A stretch of DNA of 32,593 bases, taken from assembly GCF_903642205.1 (NCBI RefSeq), contig NZ_CAHJWH010000019.1, positions 1 to 32,593 of the forward strand. Direction: 5' to 3'. Position 1 is the first letter of the stretch; the number at the start of each line of letters is the position of its first letter. This document shows positions 11,328 through 29,118 of this stretch, piece by piece. The stretch comes from Caulobacter sp. S45 (GTDB lineage: Bacteria; Pseudomonadota; Alphaproteobacteria; Caulobacterales; Caulobacteraceae). Made by a program: the position numbers and the translations under genes. The notes below the pieces were generated by a model. That model searched no databases, had not been told where the DNA came from, and saw only the letters and a program-made list of their open reading frames with translations.

Positions 11328-11475
11328 ATCCTCCCCTGCGAAGCGGGGGAGGGGGACCGCGCGCAGCGGGGTGGAGGGGGTTTGTAGGGCGCCGCGGCAT
11401 CCACCGTCACCGGCCAGCGAGGCCCCCCTCACCAGGCTTCGCCTGGTCCCCTCCCCCCGCTTCGCAGGGGGAGAT
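11328..11475. repeat. Large intergenic inverted repeat of palindromic units
   Basis: Two arms of about 53-55 bp (11328-11380 and 11421-11475) face each other across a 40-bp spacer. Both contain CTGCGAAGCGGGGG in opposite orientation, then a smaller hairpin; in the right arm this is a perfect ACCAGGC/GCCTGGT stem (11431-11447), and each arm ends in a G-rich or C-rich run. The repeat fills most of the 246-bp gap between the convergent genes ending at 11278 and 11525 and may act as a terminator for both. A single related unit recurs at 30686-30707, so this is a repeat family, REP-like in form. Confidence 0.75.
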
Positions 11476-11524
11476 AAGAGTCTGTCGCTGGATGTGATCG
11501 CCTCATCCTGATGAAAAGAGGCGC

Positions 11525-24064: not shown

Positions 24065-25468
<1,404 letters not shown>

Positions 25469-25478
25469 TTTATCGATC

Positions 25479-25691
25479 CTACTTGCGAGGCTGAGTACGC
25501 ATCCAAGCGTCGAACTTAGCCCAGTTCACATGATGGGCGTCGTCCTGATGGCCCTTAGCTAACCACCGAACTCCACCTCTTGAAACGCGGAGTTCTCCAA
25601 GTTTTCCATCGGTTGTAGACACAACAAACCTCGGCGCGGTTTGTTCATTCACTACCGAGAGCTCACCGACATTCATTTTGATATCAGCCAC
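25479..25691 (-). CDS. Small protein of unknown function within the pdh operon
   Basis: A 70-residue protein read from GTG 25691, which follows GAGGAG with good spacing and begins 12 bp after the pdhC stop. It ends 10 bp before lpdA, so it is clearly within the operon. The sequence has a beta-rich middle (RFVVSTTDGKLGELRVSRGG) and an aromatic C-terminal part (VRWLAKGH, NWAKFDAWM). The pattern G-x-L-R-V-S-x-G-G-V-x-W followed by W-x-x-F recalls widespread short orphan proteins of unknown function. Its base composition is much less GC-rich than pdhC and lpdA on either side, suggesting it was acquired. Confidence 0.75.
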   Translation of the reverse strand: MADIKMNVGELSVVNEQTAPRFVVSTTDGKLGELRVSRGGVRWLAKGHQDDAHHVNWAKFDAWMRTQPRK

Positions 25692-25703
25692 CGACTTTGC
25701 TCC

Positions 25704-27173
25704 TCACGCCAGCATGGTCACCGGGTCTTCCACGAAGCCCTTGAAGGCCTGCACCCAGCGCGCCCCGATGGCGCCGTCCACCACCCGGTGGTCGCAGGTG
25801 AGCGTCACGCTCATCACTGTGGCCACCGCCAGCGCGTCGCCGCGCACCACAGGCCGCTTCTCGCCGGCGCCCACCGACAGGATGCAGCCCTGGGGCTGGT
25901 TCAGGATCGAGCTGAAGCTTCGGATGCCGAACATGCCGAGATTCGACAGCGAGAAGGTGCCGCCCTGGAACTCCTCCGGCCTCAGCTTGCGGGTCCGCGC
26001 CCGCTCTGCGAGGTCCTTCATGGCGGTGGAGAGGTCGGCCAGGGAGCGGTTCTCGGCCTCCCGGATGATGGGCGTGATCAGGCCGCCGTCGATGGCCACC
26101 GCCACCGCCACATCGGCATGGTGGTGTAGGGCGATCCCCTCCGGCGTGAAGGAGGCGTTGGCTTCGGGCACCGCCTTGAGCGCCAGAGCCGAGGCCTTGA
26201 TCAGCAGGTCGTTGACGGAGACCCGCACGCCCCGGCTTTCCAGGGCGCCGTTGATGCGCTTGCGCGCGTCGAGCAGGCGGTCGATCTCCAGGTCCATGTT
26301 GAGCGGGAAGTGCGGCACGTCGCGGAAGCTCTCAGTGAGCCGGCGTGCGATGGTGCGGCGCATCCCGTCCAGTGGAATGAGATCGTAGGAGCCGGGAGGG
26401 ATGCCGAGGCTTTCCAGCGACTTCGCCTCGGCCGGCGCGGCGGGTGGCGCCGCTTGCGGCTTGGAGGCCGGAGGCGGAGCGGCCTGCGGCTGGGCGGCCG
26501 GTGCGCCCGGCTTGGCCACCTCGATGTCGCTGACGATGATGCGGCCGTGCGGGCCGGAGCCCTTCAGCGCCGACAGGTCCAAACCCTTCTGCTGAGCTAG
26601 CCGTCGCGCCAGCGGGCTGGCGAATATCCGGGCGGCGATGGGACTCCCTCCGTCCGCTTCGCCGCCATCTCCCCCGGAGGAGGAGGATCCGAAAGCGCCA
26701 CCTCGATCTTCCTCGTCTGGCGAAAGTGGCGACGAAGCCGACGAAGGGGGCTTGGCGCCTTCGTCGGCTCTCGGCGGCGACTTCGCGCCCGGATCGGCCT
26801 GGCGTTCGCGCGCCTCTTCCTGGCCCTGGTCCCGGGCCGCGCGGGGGTCGTCGGAGCTGGCCCCGGCGATGACGTCCTTGCTCTGGGCCGCCTTGGGTTG
26901 CTCCGCTGGAGGGGCGGTGGGGGCTGCAGTCCCGCCCTCCCCCTTCAGCCTGGCGATGGGGGAATTGACCTTCACCCCCTCGGTCCCTTCCGGGACCAGG
27001 ATGGCGTCCACCACGCCCTCGTCCACGGCCTCCACCTCCATGGTAGCCTTGTCGGTCTCGATCTCTGCGATCACGTCACCGGCGGAGACAGTGTCGCCGG
27101 CCTTCACGTGCCACTTGGCCAGCACCCCCTCCTCCATGGTCGGCGAGAGGGCGGGCATAAGGATGTCGGTCAT
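25704..27173 (-). CDS. pdhC: Pyruvate dehydrogenase E2 (dihydrolipoamide acetyltransferase)
   Basis: E2 forms the core of the pyruvate dehydrogenase complex and transfers acetyl from lipoyl-lysine to CoA. The 489-residue protein has one N-terminal lipoyl domain (about 1-79, lipoyl lysine in [16 protein letters not shown]). A long Ala/Pro/Ser linker (about 80-178) follows, then a peripheral subunit-binding domain ([28 protein letters not shown], about 183-222), a second Ala/Pro linker, and the acetyltransferase domain (from about 260). The catalytic [10 protein letters not shown] lies near residue 460. The linker contains a palindromic repeat element read in frame, described separately. ATG 27173 starts the gene, 21 bp after the GFA remnant. 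Confidence 0.96.
26643..26751 (-). repeat. Palindromic repeat element inserted in frame in the pdhC linker
   Basis: Two imperfect inverted arms of about 46 bp (left arm from CTCCCTCCGTCCGCTTCG, right arm ending GAAGCCGACGAAGGGGGC) match at roughly three quarters of positions around a loop of about 17 bp. On the pdhC strand it encodes a peptide starting [16 protein letters not shown] and ending [11 protein letters not shown] with no stop. It is homologous to the element in pdhB and in the same frame; this copy is 109 bp and the pdhB copy 112 bp. It is more diverged between arms than the pdhB copy, suggesting greater age. Confidence 0.8.
26754..26789 (-). repeat. Extra half-copy of the palindromic element in pdhC
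   Basis: Two bases beyond the full element, GGCGCCTTCGTCGGCT followed by GGCGGCGACTTCGC repeats the arm sequence of the element with a few changes. On the coding strand it gives [12 protein letters not shown], next to the KPPSSAS of the main copy. It looks like the remnant of an earlier or nested insertion, still in frame. Confidence 0.6.
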
Positions 27174-27194: not shown

Positions 27195-27598
27195 TCAGGC
27201 GCGGCTGAGGTGGGCGAGGCTGGGGCCATGGGCCTCCCAGTCGCGTCCGTCGAAGGGCTCAACGCGCAGGTCCAGCGCCACGTATTCGTCCAGGCAACGG
27301 GCGTTCACCGACCAGCCGTCCGGGTTCGAACGAGGGCGGTAGAAGGCCTTCGCCCCACAGGTGCTGCAGAACAGGTGTCGCGCCACGCCTGTCCCGAGCT
27401 GTAACTCGTCAGGTGATCCGCGCCCAAGAGCAGGCGGAAGCAATCCTCCGGCACGATCAGGTGCAGGTAGCCCATCTTGCTGCAGATGGAGCAATTGCAG
27501 TCCTGGACCGTCAGCTGCGAGGTCAGCTCGGCTTTGAAACGCACGGCTCCGCAGTGGCAGCCGCCCTGCTTCCAGCTGCGGTCGTCTCGCGGGCTCAC
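27195..27598 (-). pseudogene. GFA-family (glutathione-dependent formaldehyde-activating-like) gene, frameshifted
   Basis: The first part, from GTG 27598, encodes QGGCHCGAVRFKAEL, NCSICSKMGY and up to GADHLTSY. The rest of the family, TGVARHLFCSTCGAKAFY and SNPDGWSVNARCLDEY, continues in another frame down to the stop at 27195. One missing base at about 27400/27401 explains the break: TAC-CAG-CTC would restore the expected LTSYQLGTGVARH. All zinc cysteines (CHC, CNCSIC, CSTC) are otherwise intact, so the lesion is recent or is a sequencing error. GTG overlaps the pdhB stop by 4 bp, and the gene lies inside the pdh operon. GFA-family proteins bind zinc; most have unknown substrates. Confidence 0.88.
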
Positions 27599-29118
27599 TT
27601 GTAGCAGACGCCCTTCACCGCCTGCACGATCTTGTCGACCGAGGGCAGGCAGAGCGCCTCCAGGTTGGCTGCGTAGGGCATCGGCACGTCCTCGCCGCTG
27701 ACCCGGGTCGGTGGGGCGTCCAGGTAGTCGAAGGCGTGCTCCACCACCCGCTGGCAGACCTCGGCGCCGACGCCATAGGTCGCCCAGCCCTCCTCCACGC
27801 TCACCAGCCGGTTGGTCTTCTTCACGCTCTCGACGATGGTCTCATGGTCCAGAGGGCGCAGGGTGCGCATGTCCACCACCTCCGCCTCGATCCCGTCGGC
27901 AGCAAGCTTCTCGGCCGCCTCGAGCGCGAACCCGACCATGCGGGAGTGGGCGACCAGGGTCACGTGCCTGCCCTCCCGGCGCACCTTGGCCTTGCCGATG
28001 GGCAGGACGAAGTCGTCCATCTCCGGAACGTCGAACTCGTGCCCATAAAGCATCTCGTTCTCCAGGAAGACCACCGGGTTCGGATCGCGGATGGCAGCCT
28101 TCAGCAGCCCTTTGGCGTCGGCCGCGTCATAGGGCGCGATCACCTTCAGCCCCGGCACCGAGCCGTACCAGGCGGAATAGTCCTGGCTGTGCTGAGCCCC
28201 CACCCGCGCCGCGGCGCCGTTAGGGCCGCGGAACACGATGGAGCAGGTGATCTGGCCGCCGGACATGTAGCGGGTCTTGGCGGCGGAATTGACGATGGCG
28301 TCGATGGCCTGCATGGCGAAGTTGAAGGTCATGAACTCTACGATCGGCTTCAGCCCGGCCATGGCCGCCCCGACGCCAAGCCCCGCAAAGCCGTATTCGG
28401 TGATCGGCGTATCCACCACGCGCTTGTCGCCGAACTCCTGCAGCAGGTCGCGCGACACCTTGTAGGCGCCCTGGTACTGGGCGACCTCCTCGCCGATCAG
28501 GAAGACGCTGTCGTCGCGCCGCATCTCCTCCGCCATGGCGTCGCGCAGCGCGTCGCGCACCGTGGTCGCCACCATCTTGGTGCCGGCTGGGATGTCGGGG
28601 TCGGCGAGCGGAGAGGGCGTAGCGAGGGCGACAGGCCCCTCCCCTTCCGCTTTGGGCTTGACGGTCTCCGGGGGCTGCTTCTCCGGCTCGCCAGCGCTGG
28701 CCTCGGCGGCGTTCGGCTTGGCGACAGCGACCGGCGCTGCGGCGGCGGAGCCCCCTCCGTCCGCTTCGCGGCCACCTCCCCCAGGGGGGGAGGATCTAGG
28801 ACCCTGTTTTTCTTGATCTTCCTCCCCTGGGGGAAGTGGCGGCGAAGCCGACGAAGGGGGCGACTTGGCGCTATGGTCAGCCTCATCCTTCAGCCGCGCT
28901 ATGGGCGCGTTGACCTTCACGCCCTCGGCCCCGGCCTCCACCAGCAGCGCCTCCACCACGCCCTCGTCGACGGCTTCGACCTCCATGGTGGCCTTGTCGG
29001 TCTCGATCTCGGCGATCACATCGCCGGCCGAGACCGTGTCGCCGACCTTGATGTTCCACTTGGACAGTGTGCCCTCCTCCATGGTGGGGGAGAGGGCGGG
29101 CATGAGGACATCGGTCAC
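27595..29118 (-). CDS. pdhB: Pyruvate dehydrogenase E1 component, beta subunit, with N-terminal lipoyl domain
   Basis: With PdhA it forms the E1 heterotetramer that decarboxylates pyruvate on thiamine diphosphate. The 507-residue protein has a lipoyl domain at about 1-79 (lipoyl lysine in [15 protein letters not shown]), a low-complexity linker at about 80-180, then the transketolase-like beta subunit ([25 protein letters not shown]-type start, [49 protein letters not shown]). A lipoyl domain fused to E1-beta is known from alphaproteobacteria. Its lipoyl domain is almost identical to that of PdhC. Residues about 85-125 are encoded by a palindromic repeat. Start is GTG 29118, 9 bp after pdhA. 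Confidence 0.96.
28750..28861 (-). repeat. Palindromic repeat element inserted in frame in the pdhB linker
   Basis: Left arm 28750-28796 and right arm 28815-28861 are 47 bp each and match at about 41 positions, around an 18-bp loop that is T-rich on the plus strand. The arms begin GCCCCCTCCGTCCGCTTCG and end GAAGCCGACGAAGGGGGC. On the pdhB strand the element encodes [17 protein letters not shown] through [15 protein letters not shown] without a stop, forming part of the flexible linker. The mRNA would fold into a very strong stem-loop at this point of the coding sequence. Confidence 0.85.

Follow-up and report, generated by a model that had tools for sequence, protein, structure and literature searches.

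The linkers that follow the lipoyl domains of PdhB and PdhC in Caulobacter sp. S45 each contain, in frame, a copy of a structured palindromic repeat that is dispersed in Caulobacteraceae genomes. Judging from sequence comparisons, we lean toward two separate insertions of one repeat subfamily into the two linkers as the origin of this arrangement. The window analyzed here is the whole stretch of 32,593 nt, in which pdhB and pdhC belong to one minus-strand operon. The relevant features are as follows.

25704-27173, minus strand: pdhC, dihydrolipoyl acetyltransferase (E2), 489 aa (Pfam PF00364, PF02817, PF00198), with lipoyl (residues 3-76), E3-binding (183-218) and catalytic (263-488) domains
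26644-26750, minus strand: pdhC palindromic element, 107 nt, two arms and a 15-nt loop, codons 142-177, in frame (BLASTN)
27595-29118, minus strand: pdhB, E1 beta subunit of pyruvate dehydrogenase, 507 aa, lipoyl domain at the N terminus (Pfam PF00364, PF02779, PF02780)
28751-28860, minus strand: pdhB palindromic element, 110 nt, two arms and an 18-nt loop, codons 87-123, in frame (BLASTN)
11424-11487, minus strand: single arm unit of the same palindromic repeat family (nhmmer, 15.4 bits)

In both PDH genes the element starts with CCCCCT and finishes with an AGGGGG-type end. The two copies match in BLASTN at 78% identity (E 2e-19 in this genome), far above chance; 87 of 112 alignment columns are identical, and the outer 46-nt arms agree at 41/46 and 40/46 positions. 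The first-pass annotation had described the pdhC copy as a diverged element of 109 nt at 26643-26751, which was right as to its nature and slightly off as to its extent (107 nt as measured). Its further statements that the two copies share orientation and codon phase and differ in length by exactly one codon are borne out, the extra codon lying in the central loops, AAGAAAAACAGGGTCCTA and GAGGTGGCGCTTTCG (18 nt in pdhB vs. 15 nt in pdhC), which do not align with each other. The peptide stretches read from the element are of 15 + 11 residues in pdhB and 15 + 10 residues in pdhC. The two copies do not, however, occupy an equivalent place, as had been claimed. The lipoyl domain of PdhB comprises residues 3-76 (Pfam), as does that of PdhC, and the pdhB element begins 10 residues beyond it, at codon 87, whereas the pdhC element begins 65 residues beyond it, at codon 142, and ends approximately 5 residues before the E3-binding domain. 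The positions are thus 55 residues apart between the genes and adjoin different domains. When folded as single-stranded DNA, the pdhB copy had a z score of -8.50 (0/200 shuffles as good) and the pdhC copy one of -2.66 (1/200 shuffles as good), indicating that decay of the hairpin has gone further in pdhC. The GC-by-codon-position test flagged no coding frame across the single arm unit at 11424-11487, and a search of the window with Rfam gathering thresholds returned a tRNA at the window end and nothing else.

Two further minus-strand features were seen beside pdhC. Between pdhB and pdhC there is a GFA-like gene (27305-27598; PF04828, 28 bits, above cut-off) that looks frame-shifted, as its C-terminal part (27195-27494; 16 bits, below cut-off) is read in a different frame. 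On the other side of pdhC, before the ORF at 24065-25468, there is a small ORF of ~65-71 aa (25478-25694) with no Pfam match above cut-off.

The repeat is a REP/BIME-like dimer in which two arms of ~46-50 nt, each with two small hairpins, are separated by a variable loop whose sequence differs from copy to copy. The consensus of 124 distinct arms, taken from this and other genomes, folds into the hairpins GGC-TTC-GCC and CCTCCC...GGGAGG, and across these arms the paired positions covary (e.g., CG in 85 and GC in 25, or CG in 91 and TA in 24). The own genome (G000; 3.26 Mb in 265 contigs, 96% complete) contains at least 56 BLASTN matches among those listed, with both strands counted and 40 of 64 candidates scored. 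A profile search, run on the window together with 33 loci taken from this genome, detected 34 merged places, ranging from single arms of ~50 nt to full two-armed copies. Element-like DNA was found at E ≤ 1e-5 in at least 95 of 149 sampled genomes of the family and in at least 12 of 22 genera, with 5 candidates per genome scored.

Signs of a mobilizing mechanism were sought in the flanks and in the gene content. Target-site duplications, which the first-pass annotation had proposed to look for, showed no excess at 5 nt or more (2/41 copies vs. 1.6 expected); at 4 nt or more, flanking repeats were seen for 9 of the 41 copies vs. 4.7 expected, a number reached by 9/200 shuffles. The element resembles MITEs in being palindromic, dispersed and without a transposase of its own, but seems to differ from them in this lack of excess duplications of at least 5 nt, and a search with PF01797 identified no parent IS. 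A RAYT (Y1_Tnp, PF01797) was considered as mobilizer and rejected, since PF01797 was found in none of the three genomes of the genus (96, 98, and 85% complete). Among eight element-carrying genomes tested, a Y1 transposase (PF01797) was detected in one (G040) and was absent from the other seven.

In-frame insertion within protein-coding sequence is not confined to the PDH genes, as it was also found in a Mur ligase gene, in glyS, and in an lhr-like helicase gene. The Mur ligase gene, which we read as murF, carries the element between its middle and C-terminal ligase domains; glyS carries it inside the glycyl-tRNA synthetase beta domain, close to where contigs C94 and C69 both end; and the helicase copy, slightly shorter than full length, lies between the DEAD and helicase-C domains. 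Where the two glyS contigs (C94, locus L011; C69, locus L026) overlap, close to the element, their residues differ slightly, which suggests either variation between strains or that the assembly broke at the repeat. Four of the eight full-length own-genome copies are within genes (pdhB, pdhC, Mur ligase, glyS), and a copy at serA seems to be located directly 5' of the start codon. In a wider full-length set, 7/32 copies were classified as genic by the GC-by-codon-position test, a figure that is too low, since this test fails to flag both sides of the pdhC copy. The Mur ligase and glyS elements recur at identical places and in frame in genome G002, another member of the genus, so intragenic inserts can persist through speciation. 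Apparently in-frame copies were also noticed in two further ORFs, L204:1147-2517 (G002) and L233:2-1585 (G130), of 457 and 528 aa.

PDH loci were read in 69 genomes, the own genome included, out of 138 with a pdhB match. From these, 64 pdhB and 63 pdhC linkers could be extracted, both being available for 58 genomes; loci L033, L034, L035, and L040 were left out of all counts as repeat genomes of L147, L152, L112, and L150, respectively. In G001, which belongs to the same genus and whose PdhB is 86% identical over residues 126-507, neither the pdhB nor the pdhC linker contained a match to the element. The pdhB linkers of the two genomes align clearly on both sides of the insert, while the pdhC flanks are more diverged. 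Since G001 lacks both elements, both PDH copies are insertions. In G002, which is closer than G001 by sucB (92% vs. 82%) and is 85% complete, no pdhB match was found. These comparisons also bear on the reading that the first-pass annotation had named as its own refutation, in which the two linkers are simply homologous ancestral sequence without insertion boundaries, or resemble each other by chance as low-complexity sequence. The linkers are indeed Ala/Pro-rich, GC-rich, and similar by composition, but the sequence in question belongs to a dispersed repeat, forms hairpins whose paired positions covary, and is absent from G001 as well as from the majority of sampled relatives, so we consider this reading extremely improbable.

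The window linkers are long: at 113 aa the pdhB linker is the longest of 64 (median 64), and at 110 aa the pdhC linker is the longest of 63 (median 57). An AlphaFold2 model of PdhC (17 sequences; mean pLDDT 61.8, pTM 0.42) gave pLDDT values below 50 almost throughout residues 79-180, between the better predicted lipoyl and E3-binding domains, with block means of 27-34 for the element stretch. The survival of the copies may be due to the frame that is used, in which the palindrome encodes a soluble stretch rich in Pro, Ser, Gly, and Glu that would act as extra flexible linker. The pdhC linker also includes an extra Asp/Arg/Glu-rich stretch (~26751-26873, codons 101-141) that has no G001 counterpart and is apparently single-copy. 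The possibility that it is a second dispersed repeat was not supported, as the best own-genome BLAST match of 26752-26960 besides itself had an E value of 0.007.

We next consider whether the two PDH copies reflect one event or two. The reading that we favor is that, after the split from G001, two members of the subfamily would have entered the two disordered linkers independently, one in pdhB and one in pdhC. This preference is based on the facts that the insertion places differ, that the flanks share nothing beyond chance, that the lipoyl domains are not sisters, and that the loops are unalignable. For the element-free flanks, the best pdhB-pdhC score was 23, a value equalled by 42/62 and 36/63 comparisons with the linkers of other genomes. 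The two lipoyl domains of the window are not sisters, and their third-position identity is 0.65.

The same data bear on the first-pass suggestion that the element moved together with the lipoyl domain as a linker module, that is, that lipoyl domain, linker, and element were duplicated or converted between the genes as a whole. Such an event does occur in the family: in G043 the two linkers, which carry a different element, show 83% identity across 216 aligned nt and the lipoyl domains are sisters. It was not seen in this genome, although sharing between pdhB and pdhC is found elsewhere (G043, G071, G040). In the window the element-free linkers are not more alike than the null, the element positions are those 55 residues apart, and the lipoyl third-position value is near those of the orthologue comparisons with G001 (0.66 and 0.70). 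We therefore regard whole-module transfer as improbable here.

A more serious alternative, which we consider plausible though less probable than separate insertion, is that a single insertion occurred and that the element alone was then copied between the two PDH genes, by ectopic conversion seeded by the lipoyl domains or by the element itself, or by a local hop, after which the loop diverged. Several observations are in its favor. The orientation and frame of the two copies agree. The arm subtype CCCTTCGTCGGCTTCGYCGCCACTT (CTTCGTC...CACTT) is matched exactly by the pdhB and pdhC copies only, 10 other places of 12 having 2-3 mismatches, with the qualification that the pattern was itself written from these two copies. 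Carriage is correlated, as the 4 pdhB carriers are all among the 9 pdhC carriers in the 58 genomes (p 3e-4, ignoring phylogeny). In G040, the pdhB and pdhC elements are alike at 100/107 nt, loop included, while their flanks are unrelated; the figure is 92/103 nt in G071 and, more loosely, 85/113 in G099. In 22 of 58 Caulobacteraceae genomes the lipoyl domains of pdhB and pdhC group together as sisters, so that they often evolve in concert and exchange between them is frequent; third-position identity has a within-genome median of 0.70 vs. 0.59-0.62 between genomes.

The loops provide evidence on both sides. The two window loops are 30% identical, vs. 31% for shuffled letters. By comparison, loop identity is 0.83 for the glyS and 0.67 for the Mur ligase copies (G000 vs. 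G002), 0.68 for the pdhB and pdhC copies of G040, and 0.64-0.86 for the pdhC pairs within genus g2 when G071 is left aside (6/6 above shuffles), all of these pairs being above their shuffles, of which at most 18/1000 reached the observed value. Loops thus usually stay recognizable under descent, and the shuffle-level identity of the window loops, when most vertically inherited copies keep alignable ones, argues against element copying, as do the different positions and the lack of any trace of lipoyl exchange in the window. However, loops may lose all likeness within a genus, as the G071 pdhC copy may show: its loop has identities of 0.39-0.50 with those of four genus mates (4/4 at shuffle level), with arms at 0.86-0.87. 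The loop identity between the pdhB and pdhC copies of G071 is borderline (0.64; 58/1000 shuffles).

The shared frame had led the first-pass annotation to propose that two independent in-frame insertions would imply selection for one permissive frame. Independent insertion with filtering by frame is the better supported of its two options, given the empty G001 linkers, the flanks, the loops, the non-sister lipoyl domains, and the fact that all 13 Caulobacteraceae PDH linkers with matches of at least 27 bits have the element in one phase. Counted conservatively, these 13 linkers represent five lineages (the window, g2, G040, G099, and G010). The pdhB genes of Alkalicaulis and Oceanicaulis have the same phase; other phases were seen in Alkalicaulis pdhC and in weak or partial matches in L147 pdhB and in L053, L072, and L120 pdhC. 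In the PDH frame the element is rich in Pro, Ser, Gly, and Glu. Of the other five frames, three contain stops in the pdhB copy and none does in the pdhC copy, and most of those that remain open have a high content of Arg, Trp, Phe, or Leu. Which frame is permissive depends on the host gene and not on the element. The pdhC copy has a mirror frame on its opposite strand that resembles linker just as much. The helicase copy is read in the PDH frame, and the Mur ligase and glyS copies in another, so any frame filter depends on host context. A host-dependent filter is as would be expected for selection on a disordered linker, with about five lineages as its basis.

The distribution of the element across PDH and sucB linkers is suggestive of a preference for the PDH genes. 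Among the sampled Caulobacteraceae, it was found in 9/63 pdhC linkers (11.4 kb) and 4/64 pdhB linkers (12.5 kb), and in 0/53 linkers of sucB, the E2 of 2-oxoglutarate dehydrogenase, provisionally assigned by sequence likeness (25.2 kb searched). The sucB sample comprises 53 of 65 loci, the other 12 having been dropped as incomplete or unrecognized, and includes all 8 element-carrying genomes that were looked up. When phylogeny is ignored, the excess over sucB has a Fisher p-value of 0.004 for pdhC and 0.13 (not significant) for pdhB; as 5 of the 9 pdhC carriers belong to genus g2, the preference is suggestive only.

PDH linkers of other genomes also contain repetitive DNA. The pdhC linker DNA of G131 (L120:606-827) has at least 77 own-genome matches among those listed, and that of both genes of G043 (L112:1723-1974) at least 74, both strands counted in each case. 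Most of this linker DNA was observed to belong to other, longer palindromic families, unrelated to the present one, with matches of ~150-160 bp in dozens per genome. Strong DNA folding of the linkers in further alphaproteobacteria hints at more palindromic inserts. We tentatively propose, as a possibility that falls somewhat short of probable, that palindromes are captured repeatedly in the PdhB and PdhC lipoyl linkers of alphaproteobacteria, where unrelated families would land in different lineages, one frame would survive, and lipoyl-anchored exchange would copy inserts between the adjacent genes.

The best-known case of in-frame palindromes within genes is that of Rickettsia. As described in the available portions of the sources, Rickettsia palindromic elements (RPEs) are dispersed palindromes of ~150 bp, many of which lie in frame within genes, also in sister species (PMC10969869, PMC3733652). 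Compared by description, the Caulobacteraceae element is similar in being a palindrome of roughly 100-150 bp that is dispersed in the genome and inserted in frame inside genes, and by this description it works like RPEs. It differs in that its hosts are of another lineage, free-living and GC-rich, and in its repeated use of one linker pair and its sharing between pdhB and pdhC, which those portions do not mention for RPEs. REP/BIME sequences are short hairpin units, single and dimeric, that are mostly intergenic with some in ORFs, and REPs within genes, belonging to the GTAG and CGTC superfamilies, have been described in replication, repair, and tRNA genes, with tRNA synthetases and RNA helicases among the targets, according to the part of the source available (PMC3733652). 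The present hairpin unit likewise occurs both singly and as an inverted dimer, but each arm has two hairpins, 7/8 element genomes have no Y1 (RAYT) gene, and PDH subunits are not named as REP targets in that part of the source (PMC3733652). Another Caulobacter repeat family, the CcrM-associated intergenic repeat (CIR), is strictly intergenic according to the available text (PMC10969869). Compared with CIR by that description, the present element differs in being also intragenic and in having an arm consensus that, by eye, lacks GANTC. The GANTC motif is the CcrM site. A literature search of incomplete coverage returned no report of palindromic inserts in PDH lipoyl linkers or of this element in Caulobacteraceae genes. 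Intragenic palindromes as such are already known from RPEs and intragenic REPs, and there is weak evidence that the PDH-linker and Caulobacteraceae case is new.

The Caulobacteraceae, relatives of the laboratory model Caulobacter, thus show RPE-like behavior in housekeeping genes. The PDH linkers provide a natural series within one well-understood complex, from empty sites through one and then two copies to the presence of more than one repeat family. The long-standing question of how selfish palindromes are tolerated or used by coding regions becomes testable in this system, in which PDH linker length and swinging-arm function can be directly assayed. If the linkers are indeed a recurrent capture site, selfish DNA would determine how long the linkers of an essential multienzyme complex are. 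As relatives show such inserts more than once, repetitive DNA may repeatedly have supplied a central enzyme with linker sequence.
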